Positions 1,280 to 13,784 of a stretch of 64,000 bases of DNA are shown here, piece after piece. The stretch lies in the NCBI RefSeq assembly GCF_000144645.1, contig NC_014377.1, positions 1,054,001-1,118,000 of the forward strand. The letters are read 5' to 3'. The DNA is from Thermosediminibacter oceani DSM 16646 (GTDB taxonomy: Bacteria > Bacillota > Thermosediminibacteria > Thermosediminibacterales > Thermosediminibacteraceae). The notes below the pieces were generated by a model that was not told the DNA's origin, ran no database searches, and saw nothing but the letters and a program-made list of their open reading frames with translations. The position numbers and the translations under genes were made by a program. Each line of letters opens with the position of its first letter. The stretch's first letter is position 1.

Positions 1280-1308
1280 TTGACAAAAAATAAAAATCGT
1301 GTTATATT
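1280..1308 (+). promoter_or_regulatory. SigA-type promoter of corrinoid/methyltransferase cluster
   Basis: TTGACA at 1280-1285 and TATATT at 1303-1308 are separated by exactly 17 bases, a near-consensus vegetative promoter. Transcription from it would give a leader of about 240 bases before the corrinoid gene. Confidence 0.75.
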
Positions 1309-1559: not shown

Positions 1560-2198
1560 ATGGCAAGCTTAGAAGAATTAGCACAGGCTGTATTGGATGG
1601 TGATGAAACACAAGTTGTAGAACTTACAAAGAGTTTATTGACCAGTGGAGTAAGCCCGAAGGATGTCATCGACAAGGGTCTGATGGCGGGCATAGACAAG
1701 GTTGGTGAACTGTTCAAGAACAACGAGATGTTTGTGCCGGAAGTCCTGCTGTCTGCCGCGGCGCTGAAAGCCGGAATGGAGCTGGTGTTAAAGGAGAGCC
1801 AGCAAGGAGCTGAGGTGACTACTAAGGGTACAGTCGTAATGGGCACTGTTGAGGGCGACCTGCACGATATTGGTAAAAACTTGGTATGCATGATGCTGGA
1901 AAGCAACGGTTTCAAGGTTTACGACCTGGGCGTGGATGTGAAACCGGACAAATTTATTGAGGCCGTAAAGCAGTATCAGCCGGATATTGTAGGTATGTCT
2001 GCTCTGCTGACTACCACCATGGTCAATATGAAAACTACCATAGATGCTCTGGCTGCAGCTGGACTGAGAGACAAGGTAAAGATACTCGTCGGTGGAGCGC
2101 CCGTCAACCAAAAATTTGCCGATGAGATCGGCGCTGATGGATACGCACCCGATGCTGCTGCAGCAGTCGAAGTTTGCAGAAAATGCCTGGCTGGGTAA
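1560..2198 (+). CDS. Corrinoid (cobalamin-binding) methyltransferase protein, MtaC/MtbC type
   Basis: This is a small methyl-carrier protein whose cobalamin shuttles methyl groups between a substrate:corrinoid methyltransferase and a second methyltransferase. The 212 residues show the family's two parts: an N-terminal helical cap (about 1-85) and a Rossmann-like B12 domain (about 90-212). The B12 signature D100-L-H102-D-I-G105 is intact, and His102 would be the lower axial cobalt ligand. The C-terminal segment GGAPVNQKFADEIGADGY is typical. A strong AAAGGAGGT lies before the ATG. Its neighbours, a deleted mtaB and a methyl-THF methyltransferase, suggest methanol or a related methyl donor as the original substrate, which is inference. 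Confidence 0.9.
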   Translation: MASLEELAQAVLDGDETQVVELTKSLLTSGVSPKDVIDKGLMAGIDKVGELFKNNEMFVPEVLLSAAALKAGMELVLKESQQGAEVTTKGTVVMGTVEGDLHDIGKNLVCMMLESNGFKVYDLGVDVKPDKFIEAVKQYQPDIVGMSALLTTTMVNMKTTIDALAAAGLRDKVKILVGGAPVNQKFADEIGADGYAPDAAAAVEVCRKCLAG

Positions 2199-2300: not shown

Positions 2301-2921
2301 ATGGATTACAAGCCGGTTAAAACGTTTAGCGAACTGGCGATAAAATCACTTGATGACTTCGTATACGGGGTTGCGCCCAATCCCGTGAAAGCAAAAAACG
2401 GGATGGTAATAGGCGGAGGATCCGTTTATCCTGAGATAAATATGACCCTTCCACCGATGAAAATTGATCAGAGCACTATTTCTGAAGTTTATAGGCAGTA
2501 TTCGGAAATGATAGAAGGTATTCTCAAGAGGGCGAAGGACCTTTACGCTCCCGGCATCATTGTGGAAGTGGAGCTGCTCCCGGAGACCACGATGAAGCCA
2601 GAATGGGGCTTCGAGATCAATAAGATCTTACTGGATAAGATGAGGGAGTACCAGGAGAAGTACGGCCTGAAGAGCCTTCTAAGGTGTACTCCGAATGACG
2701 TCAGAGAGATGATCAGACCGCCGTTTATGAGGCGCGGTGATATGGAAAAAGGTGAAGTGACGGTACTTCCGCGTGAGAAAAAGTGGCTGGACATCATTAG
2801 TTCTCAGATTGAAAGAATACCCGACGATGAAGAGAAGTTCTGGCACGAAATTCAGAAGGAACTTGATCTCACGAAGTGGAGACCTGAGGAATATGATTTA
2901 GAGGTCTCTACGACGAAATAG
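2301..2921 (+). CDS. Internally deleted methanol:corrinoid methyltransferase (MtaB-like remnant)
   Basis: The first ~145 of 206 residues match the N-terminus of MtaB, with KNGMVIGGGSVYPEINMTLPP, then YAPGIIVEVELLP and LLRCTPNDVREMIRPP. After residue ~145 the protein jumps to a stretch (GEVTVLPREKKWLD, then ERIPDDEEKFW) that resembles the extreme C-terminus of MtaB as I recall it. MtaB is normally about 460 residues, so roughly 250 are missing in frame. The missing part should include the zinc ligands (one Glu and two Cys in the archaeal enzyme). Only one Cys remains, so it is probably catalytically dead. An RBS-like GAGGGGG precedes the ATG, so it may still be translated. MtaB identity is fairly sure; the deletion interpretation is inference. 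Confidence 0.7.
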   Translation: MDYKPVKTFSELAIKSLDDFVYGVAPNPVKAKNGMVIGGGSVYPEINMTLPPMKIDQSTISEVYRQYSEMIEGILKRAKDLYAPGIIVEVELLPETTMKPEWGFEINKILLDKMREYQEKYGLKSLLRCTPNDVREMIRPPFMRRGDMEKGEVTVLPREKKWLDIISSQIERIPDDEEKFWHEIQKELDLTKWRPEEYDLEVSTTK

Positions 2922-2949: not shown

Positions 2950-3750
2950 ATGCTAATTGTCGGGGAGTTGATAAATTCAAGCCGTAAATCAATCGCCCAA
3001 GCTTTAGAAGCCCGGGATGAAGCGTACCTTAAGGATCTGGCCAAAAAACAAGCAGAGGCCGGAGCCCATATAATAGATATAAACTGTGCCATTTTCATGG
3101 AAAAAGAGCCTGAAGTAATGGAATGGCTGGTAGGTATTATACAGGAAGCTGTGGATGTACCCTTATGCATTGATACCCCTAACGTCGCGGCCATGGAAGT
3201 CGGGCTATCCCGCCACAAAGGTAGGGCCATGATAAATTCTATTTCCGCCGAGAAAAAACGGTGGGAAGAAATGCTCCCGCTGGTGAGCAAATATAAACCC
3301 ATGGTCATCGCCTTGTGTATAGATGATGCTGGCATGCCAAATTCGGTTGAGGATCGCCTGCGGGTGGCTGATAAACTAATACCCGGCTTAGTAGAGGCAG
3401 GTATTTCCGAAGAGGATATCTATCTTGATCCGCTGATTAAGCCGTTAGGGGTCAGTGGTACTGCTGCGGTTGAGGTGCTGGAAACTACACGGGCTTTGCG
3501 GGAGAAATATCCCAAGGTACATGTAATCAGCGGTCTTTCTAACGTCTCTCATGGATTGCCGGTAAGGAAAGTTCTAAATCGGGCGTTTGCCGTGATGTGT
3601 GCGGAAGCGGGTATGGATGCTCTCATCGCGGACCCCTTAGATCGCCACCTCATGTCTTTAGTCTTCGCGGCAGAAGCATTGGCGGGACGGGATAAACACT
3701 GCCTGAATTATATTAAAGCATCCCGTGCAGGTAAAGTAGTGGCAGAATAA
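2950..3750 (+). CDS. Methyltetrahydrofolate:corrinoid methyltransferase (AcsE/MtgA family)
   Basis: The 266-residue TIM-barrel protein is expected to transfer a methyl group between N5 of methyl-tetrahydrofolate and the cobalt of a corrinoid protein. Four pterin-binding residues known from the Moorella enzyme occur at matching positions: Asp75 (in LCIDTPN), Asn96 (AMINS), Asp160 (YLDP) and Asn198 (SGLSNVS). Length and full collinearity fit the family. AAAGGAGG precedes the ATG at 2950. Being next to the corrinoid gene, it likely either hands methyl groups to THF (MtgA-like, substrate demethylation) or takes them for acetyl-CoA synthesis (AcsE-like). Sequence alone does not decide the direction. 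Confidence 0.88.
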   Translation: MLIVGELINSSRKSIAQALEARDEAYLKDLAKKQAEAGAHIIDINCAIFMEKEPEVMEWLVGIIQEAVDVPLCIDTPNVAAMEVGLSRHKGRAMINSISAEKKRWEEMLPLVSKYKPMVIALCIDDAGMPNSVEDRLRVADKLIPGLVEAGISEEDIYLDPLIKPLGVSGTAAVEVLETTRALREKYPKVHVISGLSNVSHGLPVRKVLNRAFAVMCAEAGMDALIADPLDRHLMSLVFAAEALAGRDKHCLNYIKASRAGKVVAE

Positions 3751-3773: not shown

Positions 3774-3807
3774 GGCCGCGGCAGAAGTAGCTGCCGTGGC
3801 CTTTTTT
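3774..3807 (+). terminator. Intrinsic terminator after methyltransferase gene
   Basis: An 11-bp GC-rich stem (GGCCGCGGCAG with CTGCCGTGGCC, one G-U pair) has a 6-base loop and a T6 run. It ends the transcript of the corrinoid cluster. Confidence 0.9.
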
Positions 3808-3961: not shown

Positions 3962-4118
3962 TAAAGATAGGATGTTCTTTCGGGAGTAATCACAAAAAAG
4001 GTTACTTTTCCTGAAACAAATAAAAAAATTTTCTCATCAATAAGATTCCCTGGCAGAAAAAACATTTGAGGATTATGAGAAGTATTTATTTTTTAATTTA
4101 GTGAAAGGAGAGGTAACA

Positions 4119-5684
4119 ATGCAGAACCGTTTTAAGGAGTCCCTGCTAGACAAAAACGTTTTTTCCGTTACCTGGGAACTGGTGCCGGGTAGGGGAGCCA
4201 GGGAAAAGACGCAGGAAGAGGCTATAATGGCAGCAGAGCAGGCAGCTAAGGGAGGAAAAATACATGCTCTCACTCTAACCGATAACCCGGGTGGAAATCC
4301 GGCTATTCTGGCGGACTATCTAGCAACTGAAGTAATTAAAAAAGGTATCGAGCCTCTGGTTCATTTCACCTGCAAAGATAGAAACCGCAACCAGATCGAA
4401 AGCCAGCTGTATGCCCTAGATCGGGCCGGGGTCAGAAATCTTCTTGTAATGACGGGAGACTACACCGTTTCGGGTTATGCGGGCCGCCCTAAGCCGGTCT
4501 TTGACGTTGACCCCATCCATGTTCTCGACCTTATTTCACAAATGAACCGCGGGCTTGAGTATCCGGGAATAAAAGGAACTATAAAGCATCAGCCCAGTGA
4601 TTTTTTTGCCGGTGCTGTTGTTTCACCCTTTAAAGCTACGGAAGCAGAACAAATGGTTCAGTATTATAAATTAAAGAAAAAGGTAAAAGCTGGAGCCCAA
4701 TTCATTGTTACCCAGCTGGGTTATGATGCCCGAAAATTCCATGAAGTAATTCAATTTATCCGGCAGCAGGGGTGGAATATTCCGGTTATCGGTAATATCT
4801 ACATCCTGCCTCTAGGTACGGCAAGAGTAATGAACAAAAATAGGATTCCCGGTTGCGTCGTTACGGACAAACTGGTAGCCGAGTTGGAGAAAGAAGCTCA
4901 GGCTCCGGATAAAGGACGCCAGGCCCGCCTGGACAGAGCAGCAAAGATGTATGCCTTTATGAAAGGAATGGGTTACGATGGCGTGCACATAGGTGGTCAC
5001 GGCGTCAAATACGAAGATGTAGAGTATGTTATTGAAAAAGGGGAAGAACTCAGCAAAAACTGGATGGACTTCATTCATGAATTTGATTTTCCGATCCCCG
5101 GCGGTTTCTATTACTACGAAAAGGATCCCAAGACCGGTCTCAACACTCCCAATCCGGTCGACCGCAAAAACAGGCCTCTTGACGCCCCGGTGGAATTTAT
5201 TTACCGCCTGTCCACATTTACGCATCGTATGATGCTTGAGCCCGGGACACCTCTGTGGAAACCAATGCAGGCAATAGCCAGAATGGTTGACGGGACTTCA
5301 TTAGAGAGACCATACCATGCCTTCGAACACCTCATGAAAGTTTGCCTGTACGATTGCCAAAATTGTGGCGACTGTGCTTTGATGGATGTGGCATATGTCT
5401 GTCCCATGTCTCAGTGTCCCAAAAACCAGCGGAACGGGGCTTGCGGAGGCAGCTACATGGGCTGGTGTGAGGTTTATCCCAATAAGAAAAAATGCGCTTA
5501 TGTCCGTGCTTACGCCCGTCTGAAGCGTTTTGGAAAAGAGCACGAGCTGGATGGCAATATTATACCGCCGCCCAACTGGGACCTCTATCAGACCTCTTCC
5601 TGGCTCAACTATTATTTGGGCCGCGACCATTCTGCGAGTCGCTTTGGAATAAAGCGTTACGAAAAAAAGAAAGATAAAAAATAA
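4119..5684 (+). CDS. Methylenetetrahydrofolate reductase fused to C-terminal MetV-like domain
   Basis: Residues ~1-300 form the MetF TIM barrel (FSVTWELVPG, LTLTDNPGGNP, VHFTCKDRNRNQIESQLYAL), which reduces methylene-THF to methyl-THF. Residues ~390-475 carry a cysteine-rich MTHFR_C/MetV module (CQNCGDC, CPMSQCPKN, NGACGGS, WCEVYPNKKKCAYVRAY). In several acetogens MetF and MetV are separate subunits; here one 521-residue chain holds both. A GTG at 4101 is in frame, but AAAGGAGAGG (4104-4113) sits 5 bases before the ATG at 4119, so 4119 is chosen. It would supply the methyl-THF used by the methyltransferase just upstream. Confidence 0.85.
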   Translation: MQNRFKESLLDKNVFSVTWELVPGRGAREKTQEEAIMAAEQAAKGGKIHALTLTDNPGGNPAILADYLATEVIKKGIEPLVHFTCKDRNRNQIESQLYALDRAGVRNLLVMTGDYTVSGYAGRPKPVFDVDPIHVLDLISQMNRGLEYPGIKGTIKHQPSDFFAGAVVSPFKATEAEQMVQYYKLKKKVKAGAQFIVTQLGYDARKFHEVIQFIRQQGWNIPVIGNIYILPLGTARVMNKNRIPGCVVTDKLVAELEKEAQAPDKGRQARLDRAAKMYAFMKGMGYDGVHIGGHGVKYEDVEYVIEKGEELSKNWMDFIHEFDFPIPGGFYYYEKDPKTGLNTPNPVDRKNRPLDAPVEFIYRLSTFTHRMMLEPGTPLWKPMQAIARMVDGTSLERPYHAFEHLMKVCLYDCQNCGDCALMDVAYVCPMSQCPKNQRNGACGGSYMGWCEVYPNKKKCAYVRAYARLKRFGKEHELDGNIIPPPNWDLYQTSSWLNYYLGRDHSASRFGIKRYEKKKDKK

Positions 5685-6054
5685 TGAAAAAGAGATACTT
5701 TTTAGGCAAAATTCCCTTATAAGTGCTAATATCTAATTTATATAAGTTATCTCGGATTTTCATGCTGTGTGTTTGAAATATATAGGGAAACATTCCTGCT
5801 TTTAAAAGCAGTTTTTTCTTTTTAGAGGAATTTTGAGAAATACGCTGAATATTTACCTCTAATCAAGGAGGATTGATAAAGTTATAGAATTGTTTTTAAT
5901 ACAGCTTTAATTTGGTTGTGACAAAACTATAAAACATGAAAGGAGTCGATGTTTTGGAGACCGTTTTTAACAAAACCAGGCGGGTTATAAGGGAATCTTT
6001 AAATGCTGGGTAAACGAATGCAAATGGAGGTTCAATATAAGCAGGGAGGAAAAA
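5685..6054 (+). other. Intergenic region with terminator and possible leader peptide
   Basis: A terminator lies at 5796-5817. Further on, AAGGAGG near 5865 and AAAGGAG at 5939-5945 look like ribosome sites with only tiny frames after them. The second could start a 19-codon frame from TTG at 5954 to the stop at 6013 (begins METVFNKTRR, ends ESLNAG). I recognise no function, and no convincing promoter for yifB is visible. Confidence 0.3.
5796..5817 (+). terminator. Intrinsic terminator after MetF/MetV-like gene
   Basis: CTGCTT-TTAA-AAGCAG (5796-5811) forms a short perfect stem followed by T6. It lies about 110 bases after the reductase stop codon. Confidence 0.65.
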
Positions 6055-9371: not shown

Positions 9372-11456
9372 ATGGCTAAATCTCTGATAATTGTTGAGTC
9401 TCCAGCTAAAGCAAAGACTATCAGCCGATTCCTCGGGAAAGAATATAGAGTTGCTGCATCCATGGGCCATGTACGGGATCTGCCGAAAAGCAAGCTGGGA
9501 ATCGATATAGAAAAAGGCTTTGTACCGAAGTATATAACCATCCGCGGCAAGGGGTCTATAATCGAAAACTTGAGAAAAGAGGCTGCAAAAGCTCAGAAGG
9601 TCTTGCTCGCCACCGACCCCGATAGGGAGGGTGAAGCTATATCTTGGCACTTGGCGCACCTTCTCGACATTCCACCCGAGACCCCTTGCAGGGTGGAGTT
9701 CCACGAAATAACGAAGACCGCTGTTTCCGAATCCCTGCGGCACCCCCGAAAGATAAACATGAATCTAGTGGATGCCCAGCAGGCGAGGAGGATATTGGAC
9801 CGTCTGGTAGGGTATAAGATAAGCCCGATTCTGTGGCGCAAGGTTAAATGGGGATTAAGTGCCGGACGGGTTCAGTCGGCGGCGGTCAGGATGATATGCG
9901 ATAGAGAAAAAGAGATAGCTGAATTTGTACCGGAAGAATACTGGACAATTGAGGCGGAACTTGCAGATCGACCTGACGGCAGTAGCTTTAAGGCGAAACT
10001 CCATTCTCGGGGCAATGAAAAAATAAACCTGAAGAACAGGGAACAGGTGGAAAAAATTGTGGCCGATCTGCAAGATCAGGTATTTGTGGTCATGGAGATT
10101 AAAAGAGGCGAAAGGCGCCGCAACCCCGCACCTCCTTTCACTACCAGTACCATGCAGCAGGAAGCGGCCAGAAAGCTGGGTTTTACCGCCAAGAAGACTA
10201 TGATGATAGCCCAGCAACTTTACGAAGGCCTTGATATCAAGGGGGAGGGCACCGTTGGTCTCGTAACTTATATAAGGACCGATTCAACCCGGATCTCTGA
10301 ACAGGCTCAGAAAGAAGCAAAAGAATATATTAAAGCCAATTACGGCTCCGAGTATGTAGCGGAAAGCATGTCGGTTAAAAAGGCCAAAAAAAACATACAG
10401 GATGCCCATGAGGGCATAAGGCCGACTTCGGTTTTCCGCCATCCTGACTCTATTAAGGATTCCTTAACTTTAGACCAGTACAAGCTTTATAAGCTGATAT
10501 GGGAAAGGTTTTTAGCAAGTCAGATGGCACCGGCGGTATACGATACCGTTTCGATAGATATAAAAGCCGGCTCTTACATTTTCAAAGCTTCCGGTTCGAC
10601 TCTCAAATTTACGGGTTTTATGGCCGTGTATATAGAAGGAGCCGATGAGGAAACCGAAAAAGACGAAGGGACTCTGCCCATTCTCGAACAAGGGCAAAAG
10701 CTTACGCTCTTAAAAATTATGCCCGAACAGCACTTTACGCAGCCGCCACCGAGATTTACTGAGGCTATGCTGGTAAAGGCGCTTGAAGAAAAAGGTATCG
10801 GCCGTCCGAGCACCTATGCGCCAATAATCGACACTATACAAAAAAGAGGTTATGTAAAAAAAGAAAAAGGAAGGTTTAAACCGACGGAACTAGGGCAACT
10901 TGTGACGGAAATATTAAAGGAGTACTTTAGCGATATAGTTGACCTGGATTTTACTGCGGAAATGGAAAACCAGCTGGATAAAATAGAAGCAGGAGAAGAG
11001 AATTGGCAGAAAATTATCGAGTCCTTCTACAGACCCTTTGAGGAAAAGCTCAAGATAGCCGAAGAGAAAATTGAGGAAGTGAAAATTGAAGATGAAGTTA
11101 CCGAGGAAAAATGCGAGCTTTGCGGCAGAAATATGGTAATAAAACACGGCAGGTACGGGAAATTTATGGCGTGTTCGGGATTCCCTGAATGCAAAAATAC
11201 AAAGCCATTACTCGAAGAAACCGGCGTAAAATGCCCTGTATGCGAAGGGGTAATCGTCGTCAGAAAGTCCAAGAAGGGGCGAAAGTTTTACGGCTGCAGC
11301 AATTATCCCAATTGCGAATTCGTAACGTGGGATCCGCCCAGCGAAACCCCGTGCCCGCGCTGCGGGGGTTTGATGGTTGTAAAGTCAACAAAGAGCGGCA
11401 AGATAACGGCATGCACTAACACGGAATGCGGTTACAAAGACCAGGTTGAGGGGTGA
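9372..11456 (+). CDS. topA: DNA topoisomerase I (type IA)
   Basis: The enzyme relaxes negative supercoils by cutting one strand. The 694 residues contain the Toprim domain ([14 protein letters not shown] with Glu9; [13 protein letters not shown] with Asp82 and Asp84), the catalytic tyrosine at 300 in [10 protein letters not shown], and two to three C-terminal zinc-ribbon modules from about 575 onward ([35 protein letters not shown]). It starts 9 bases after dprA with AGGTGATG as ribosome site, so it is co-transcribed. It is a typical full-length Firmicute TopA. Confidence 0.97.
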
Positions 11457-11460
11457 AATT

Positions 11461-12774
11461 ATGGAAAAAGTAAAAGTAATAGGCGGAGGTCTGGCAGGAT
11501 GTGAAGCGGCCTGGTATATTGCGAATATGGGCTTTAAAGTTGAACTGTACGAAATGAGACCGGTAAGGTCGACGCCTGCCCATCATACCGATAAGCTGGC
11601 CGAGCTGGTGTGCAGCAATTCCTTGAGGTCCAATGAACTGACCAATGCTGCGGGGCTTTTAAAAGAAGAGATGCGCCTTTTGGGGTCGCTTATTATAAAA
11701 AAAGCTGAGGAAAACAGCGTCCCTGCGGGAGCGGCCCTTGCCGTAGACAGGGAAAAATTTTCTAGCGCTGTGACTTCTGCCATCCAAGAACACCCGCTGA
11801 TTGAAGTCTGCAGGAAAGAGGTGGATCATATACCGGAACCTCCTGCGATAATAGCAACAGGCCCCCTCACTTCGGATTCCCTATCCAAAGCGATTAGCCA
11901 ACTGCTGGGCAAGGAATACCTTTACTTTTACGATGCCGCCGCCCCGATTATTACGGCGGACTCCATAGATTGGAATATCGCTTTTTGGGGCTCCAGGTAC
12001 AACAAAGGCGATGAAGATTATGTGAATTTGCCCATGACCGAAGAAGAGTACATGGAGTTCTACAATGAACTGATAAACGCAGAAGTTCACCCTCTGAAGG
12101 AATTTGAAAAACCCGTATTTTTCGAGGGATGCATGCCCATCGAGGTAATGGCAAGGAGAGGGCCGAAGACATTGCTTTTCGGCCCGCTAAAACCCGTTGG
12201 GATAATAGATCCGAGAACCGGTAAACAACCCTATGCCGTTGTTCAGCTGAGGAAGGAAAATAGAGAAGGTACCCTTTTTAATATTGTAGGCTTCCAGACC
12301 AGCCTGAAATGGCCGGAACAGAAAAGGGTATTCAGCAAAATTCCGGGGTTGAAAGATCCGGAATTCGTCCGATACGGTTTTATACACAGAAATACGTTTA
12401 TCATGAGTCCCAAATTTATGCAGCCCTGGCTTGAGCTGAAAACGACCTCCGGGTTGTTTTTTGCCGGGCAGATTACCGGAGTCGAAGGATATATAGAATC
12501 GGCAGCGTCGGGCATAGTTGCGGGTGTAAATATGGTACGCCGGTTGAAAGGGCTGGACCCCATTACATTTCCCTTGGAAACTGTTGTGGGATCCCTTTGC
12601 CATTATATAACTTCAGCTGACCCCAAGAATTTCCAGCCGATGAAGGCCAATTTTGGAATACTTCCACCGCTAGAGGAGAAGGTTAAATCGAAAAAAGAGC
12701 GAAACCATCGACTTGCCCAACGCTCTATAAAGATTTTGAGGGAATTTATTGCTGTTAATAAATTGATGGTATAA
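11461..12774 (+). CDS. trmFO: Methylene-THF--tRNA (uracil-54-C5)-methyltransferase TrmFO
   Basis: TrmFO makes ribothymidine-54 in tRNA using methylene-THF and FADH2. The 437 residues begin with the FAD dinucleotide fold ([15 protein letters not shown]), followed by the signature CSNSLRSNE and a C-terminal [18 protein letters not shown] at 11446 is in frame, but GAGGGGTG lies just before the ATG at 11461, which is taken as the start. The ATG is 4 bases after the topA stop, implying translational coupling. In B. subtilis the same gene (gid) follows topA. Confidence 0.96.
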
Positions 12775-12829
12775 TTTGGCTATTCAAAAAAATTTAACAT
12801 AAAATTTAAAAATAATTTAGAATTTAATC

Positions 12830-12858
12830 TTGCATAAAAACAAATGTTGTGGTAGTAT
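12830..12858 (+). promoter_or_regulatory. Probable promoter of xerC-hslVU-codY
   Basis: TTGCAT (12830-12835) and TAGTAT (12853-12858) have a 17-base spacer and lie 30 bases before the xerC start. The AT-rich 113-base gap after trmFO supports a separate promoter here. Confidence 0.5.
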
Positions 12859-12887
12859 AGTATTTGTTCACCGCGAGGTAGATAAAT

Positions 12888-13784
12888 GTGGAAAACCATG
12901 CGATTGACAGTTTTCTAACTTATATTAGTGCAGCGAAAAACCAATCGCCGAACACCTTAAAAGCCTATGCTAACGACTTGGGGCAGTTTATCGAATATTT
13001 GGAACAAAATAAAATATCTAAAACGAAGACCCTAAACGACATCACCCATCTAGACATTCGCGGATTTTTAGCCTATCTTAAGGAAAGCGGCGCATCCAAA
13101 AAAACTATCGCGCGTAAGCTCTCTGCCATAAGGAGCTTTTTTAGGTACCTTAGCACAGAAGGCCTGGTTTCAGAGGACCCGACAAAGATGGTTCAAGGGA
13201 TGAAATTACCCAAAAAATTGCCTCTCTTTTTGTATCCGGCTGAGATTGAGGCTTTGCTTTCGGCGCCCGGGCAGGATGTGCTGGGCATCAGGGATAGAGC
13301 AATAATGGAACTTTTGTACGCTACCGGAATGAGGGTAAGTGAACTTGTTTCACTAAAACTCAAAGATGTCAATCTGGGTGCGAACTTCATTATAGTGTTC
13401 GGTAAAGGTTCGAAGGAGAGGGTGGTGTTTTTCGGGTCAAAAGCTGCTGAAAGTCTTGAAGAGTACTTGAGAAAAAGCAGGCCGTACCTTGTAAAAAATT
13501 TAACGTGCGATTATTTGTTTTTAAACAAGAATGGGACCAGGTTGACCGATAGAAGCGTAAGAAGGATAATAGATAAGTACGTTAAATTATTGTCGTTGAA
13601 CGCCAAAATCAGTCCTCACACTCTAAGACATACTTTTGCAACCCATATGCTGAATAACGGAGCGGATTTAAAGACTGTTCAGGAGTTGCTGGGCCATGTG
13701 AGCTTGTCTACGACGCAGATCTACACTCATGTTACAAAAGAAAGGCTGAAAGAGGTCTATGACAAAGCCTTTCCTCACTCGTGA
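12888..13784 (+). CDS. xerC: Tyrosine recombinase XerC (CodV-like)
   Basis: This site-specific recombinase resolves chromosome dimers at dif. The 298 residues comprise an N-terminal SAM-like core-binding domain (about 1-90) and a catalytic domain with all six active-site residues: Arg149, Lys175, His244, Arg247, His270 and the nucleophile Tyr279. The start is GTG with GAGGT 8 bases upstream; an overlapping ATG at 12886 is out of frame. It heads the xerC-hslV-hslU-codY block, the same order as codV-clpQ-clpY-codY in B. subtilis, so orthology to CodV is likely. Confidence 0.93.

Follow-up and report, generated by a model that had tools for sequence, protein, structure and literature searches.

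An in-frame internal deletion in the mtaB gene of Thermosediminibacter oceani is probably a recent loss of function

Thermosediminibacter oceani DSM 16646 carries an mtaB gene whose catalytic middle has been deleted in frame; the allele is very likely a recent loss of function. The intact gene encodes the methanol:corrinoid methyltransferase (MT1). The window, that is, the whole stretch of DNA analysed here (64,000 nucleotides), covers positions 1054001–1118000 of the finished T. oceani chromosome (2,280,035 bp). The catalytic middle of mtaB was lost in one deletion of 792 bp, which we propose to have joined two very short stretches of matching sequence. The fused remnant stays in frame and is probably translated, and it would be unable to bind zinc or to form the barrel. 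Methanol entry by the MT1 route would thus be lost, with the partner genes undecayed: T. oceani can most likely no longer use methanol by this route. On this reading, the locus is a case of ordinary gene decay caught early.

The mtaB remnant

The remnant is an open reading frame of 206 codons on the forward strand (positions 2301–2921), encoding 206 amino acids. It has no premature stops or frameshifts and is preceded by a good ribosome site. It belongs to the Pfam MtaB family PF12176, with a score of 160.9 bits (cut-off 25), and the match consists of two stretches in a single frame, covering profile positions 1–141 and 407–460 of 460 only. The NCBIfam equivalog NF040651 matches residues 6–136 only and scores 94 bits, where its cut-off is 720. 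Complete MtaB proteins have about 460 residues, and the remnant does not encode a complete TIM barrel.

The nearest intact MtaB is that of Thermosediminibacteraceae MAG bin 27 (genome G019, locus L005), which is 92 per cent identical to the remnant across the retained part. The N-terminal block (2301..2740, forward strand; profile positions 1–141) shows 94.5 per cent amino acid identity to L005 over 146 codons. The C-terminal block, including the stop (2745..2921, forward strand; profile positions 407–460), shows 87.5 per cent. Compared with the L005 tail, this block is 84 per cent identical over 64 residues and is a genuine MtaB tail, as a preliminary description made from the sequence had supposed. 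Both blocks match one orthologue and lie between the same two genes, so the two-block likeness is not due to chance.

The deletion

Relative to L005, the remnant lacks exactly 264 residues, or 792 bp, a multiple of three; an alignment with 15 intact MtaBs likewise gives 264 missing residues. Comparing the two sides base by base with L005 and with L006 (genome G016, Bacillota MAG ZC4RG34) places the junction at 2740..2744 (forward strand), where 264 codons are gone in frame: the window tracks the N-terminal side of L005 to 2740 and its C-terminal side from 2741. The microhomology at the junction (ATG/TATG, common to both sides) is at most 4 bp. The preliminary description, which expected two aligned blocks with a gap between them, was right about the in-frame internal deletion and the absence of the zinc ligands; its estimates of the missing length (about 250 residues) and of the junction (about 2735) are corrected here.

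The missing block corresponds approximately to profile positions 142–406. It takes most of the TIM barrel and all three of the residues E164, C220 and C269 (Methanosarcina barkeri numbering), which are the zinc-binding ones in M. barkeri MtaB (structure 2i2x). Their counterparts in L005 are E170, C226 and C272. All three align within the gap, and the remnant therefore lacks the Glu/Cys/Cys ligand set of MtaB. The loss of the zinc site suggests a loss of activity. Among the 140 residues invariant in intact MtaBs, 89 fall in the gap. The catalytic core is disrupted relative to the intact orthologues L005 and L006, as in a pseudogene or decaying gene.

Structure prediction with AlphaFold gave a mean pLDDT of 67 for the remnant, against 84.5 for an intact orthologue by the same method; the input alignment was shallow (16 sequences), which makes this confidence a weak argument on folding. 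Residues 1–42 and 142–149 (the junction) score below 50, and blocks within residues 1–40 of the intact orthologue, predicted from the same relatives, score 80–91. The TM-score to PDB 2i2x is 0.42 for the remnant and 0.89 for the intact orthologue. The model retains a strand–helix–strand unit and the C-terminal helices. It argues for an incomplete, partly disordered fold and so favours a recent loss of function.

Partner genes and transcription unit

The remnant lies between a corrinoid protein gene and a methyltransferase II gene, the gene context of MtaB. Both neighbours had been described as intact, and domain matches bear this out. Upstream, at 1560..2198 (forward strand), is an mtaC-type corrinoid protein of 212 aa (PF02607 and PF02310), 85 per cent identical to its L005 orthologue, with a branch dN/dS of 0.18 and neutrality rejected. 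Downstream, at 2950..3750 (forward strand), is a methyltransferase II of the pterin-binding, methyl-THF:corrinoid type (266 aa; PF00809, and NF005719 above cut-off), 89 per cent identical to that of L005.

A promoter-like site, TTGACA-17-TATATT, lies upstream of mtaC at 1280..1308 (forward strand). It matches the consensus at 11 of 12 positions, both hexamers recur unchanged in the two relatives carrying the cluster, and it probably acts as a promoter. An intrinsic terminator with an 11-pair stem and a T run, also conserved in both relatives, follows the methyltransferase II gene at 3774..3801 (forward strand). The presence and conservation of these two signals indicate that mtaC, mtaB and the methyltransferase II gene form one unit. 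About 50 bases ahead of mtaC there is a hairpin at 1481–1511 (CTTGAAATCCGC...GCGGATTCAAG) that the two cluster-bearing relatives also conserve. It is possibly a leader element; a scan of the leader against Rfam matched no known RNA element.

Outside the lesion, at 4101..5684 (forward strand), lies a gene for methylenetetrahydrofolate reductase (MTHFR) with a C-terminal DUF5981 domain (PF02219 and PF12225; synteny), which marks the cluster site in relatives. This MTHFR–DUF5981 (MetV-like) gene is a fusion; a separate pair of MTHFR and DUF5981-like genes is found in the Wood–Ljungdahl cluster, at about 800.6–801.7 kb of the genome. The MATE transporter gene upstream of the unit has an open frame.

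The rest of the T. oceani genome

A search of the complete genome, proposed in the preliminary description, found no other mtaB; an MttB-type methyltransferase was also sought in the genome and none was found. The genome carries an acetyl-CoA synthase cluster, AcsE, AcsV, FolD, a CO dehydrogenase gene and RACo-type activators. The Wood–Ljungdahl genes and the corrinoid activators being intact, MT1 is the only broken step found. A URO-D/corrinoid fusion is present as well; it resembles the CmuA that a published study reports from the strain (PMC4197683).

Two RACo-type activator genes (L091:8109–9881 and 11428–13188, at approximately 786–791 kb of the genome) are near-identical, at 576 of 583 residues. 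They have the same orientation and flank a methyltransferase gene (10346–11161).

The published list of growth substrates for the strain does not include methanol and is silent on whether methanol was tested (PMC3035372). In the literature searched, no paper treated mtaB in Thermosediminibacter, and none named the zinc ligands of MtaB.

Distribution and history of the cluster

MtaB was found in three of 22 genomes of the order, and the two besides T. oceani, the family relatives that have the cluster (L005 and L006), carry intact, full-length orthologues. In all three genomes the cluster is next to the same MTHFR gene. Six other family relatives, G020 (same genus), G014, G015, G017, G018 and G021, keep the MTHFR gene and have no orthologues of the cluster; the stretches fetched around this gene in the six showed no DNA trace of it. 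Methanol use has therefore probably been lost repeatedly in the family. Synonymous distances to L005 are alike for mtaC, mtaB, methyltransferase II and MTHFR (0.44–0.69). This similarity favours a cluster that was inherited from a common ancestor and has since been lost repeatedly; horizontal import is on the same grounds not favoured, transfer of the cluster as a block being a less likely alternative. In G020 (L117:3544–9034), the MATE transporter gene is on the opposite side of the MTHFR gene and inverted compared with T. oceani, and an ORF of 568 aa (an S41-type peptidase by eye) occupies the place upstream of MTHFR that the mta genes hold in T. oceani.

A short MtaB form common to relatives was considered and rejected, as none was found among the genome-contig matches or in the samples of the order, class and phylum. 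In the phylum sample, 31 of 398 genomes match MtaB; beyond T. oceani the only short matches are G207 and G291, both at contig ends. All MtaBs of the phylum and class samples that are not cut by a contig end are full length except that of T. oceani. A profile scan of genome contigs gave 18 relatives, and in 17 of these mtaB is a single unbroken frame, 461–475 codons long. The exception is L017 (MAG Bacillota CTSoil_078), where an mtaB between mtaC and a methyltransferase gene (4998–5961) has an internal deletion of roughly 140–160 codons by eye, out of frame. This deletion may be a fault of the MAG assembly.

Selection in the retained blocks

Compared pairwise with L005, the N-terminal block has a dN/dS of 0.062 and the C-terminal block one of 0.078, values like those of the neighbouring genes. 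Under a two-ratio codon model with a fixed tree, the branch of the T. oceani remnant has a dN/dS of 0.070 (acceptable range approximately 0.03–0.16) against a background of 0.108, a difference that is not significant (2dlnL 0.90). Neutral evolution is rejected as an average over the whole branch (2dlnL 33.7). All 51 invariant residues in the retained parts are kept. These parts show no decay, as expected either of a very recent deletion or of a remnant under continuing constraint, and the codon-model result fits both alike. If the remnant has drifted freely since the deletion, the low branch average would make the event late, and the free time would be at most roughly one-tenth of the branch that leads from the split with L005. 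Our inference of recency carries this condition.

Alternative explanations

The preliminary description put forward two possibilities: that methanol use has recently decayed, or that a non-catalytic role is retained. The former is supported by the unique deletion, the loss of zinc site and barrel, the lack of another mtaB, the absence of accumulated substitutions and the repeated absence of the cluster in relatives; for the latter no positive evidence emerged. A point against recent loss is that the remnant has no stop, frameshift or excess of amino acid changes, as in a gene still under selection. The N- and C-terminal parts of MtaB might then bind MtaC as a scaffold or regulator, the short protein being kept by selection, with the open frame, the good ribosome site, the low branch dN/dS and the complete set of retained invariant residues all in its favour. 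Since the lack of decay could also reflect continued selection, such a role keeps some weight. We nevertheless regard it as improbable: such a protein occurs in none of the other genomes sampled, the remnant is without most of the barrel and is predicted to be partly disordered, and the low dN/dS, averaged over the whole branch, may mostly reflect the time before the deletion. A more specific form, in which the 206-residue core-less MtaB is kept as an MtaC-binding adaptor, a minimal non-catalytic MT1, enabling the corrinoid protein and methyltransferase II to function with another methyl donor enzyme, is more improbable still.

Where the loss arose is a separate matter. The deletion might have arisen during laboratory culture of the type strain, and so be real in the sequenced DNA and absent in nature. 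This would agree with substitutions that do not exceed the orthologue rate, with the single T. oceani genome in our sample and with the growth substrate list; that the other Thermosediminibacter genome has lost the entire cluster points instead to natural loss in the genus, and we consider a laboratory origin rather unlikely. It overlaps with the preferred explanation, and the two likelihoods are not additive. An error in the published assembly is the least credible account. The genome is finished, at 65x coverage from Sanger, 454 and Illumina reads, with a stated error rate below 1 in 100,000 (PMC3035372). The junction sequence is single copy within the window, and the homology between its two sides is too short for a repeat collapse.

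Significance and comparison with known systems

A recent loss-of-function allele of mtaB would be a natural, clean knockout of the only mtaB, in a genome still carrying the downstream steps. An annotation that sees corrinoid protein, MtaB and methyltransferase side by side would mistakenly assign methanol use to T. oceani. Stepwise loss of a methyl-entry module of acetogenesis is visible here within one bacterial family, and the setting is a deep-sea, heat-loving bacterium. Knowledge of the methanol enzymes is unchanged; this is an ordinary but well-preserved pathway loss.

Among the closest systems are those of MAG bin 27 and MAG ZC4RG34, which have the same gene order, promoter, terminator and place at the side of MTHFR as T. 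oceani; they differ in their full-length mtaB (470 aa in L005 and 468 aa in L006). The M. barkeri MtaB (PDB 2i2x, chain A) is of the same family as the remnant over both retained blocks and is likewise partnered by a corrinoid protein and a methyltransferase II, whereas the remnant is without the 264 central residues, the zinc ligands and most of the TIM barrel. In Moorella thermoacetica the methanol genes are mtaA1B1C1 (PMC13391211). Moorella MtaBs (L007, L008 and L010) are 79–84 per cent identical to the remnant in the N-terminal block, and in Moorella, as in T. oceani, mtaB has a corrinoid protein and a methyltransferase II of the pterin type next to it. Moorella differs in having an intact mtaB and in placing methyltransferase II first in the gene order, and its methyltransferase II is only about 52 per cent identical to that of T. 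oceani.
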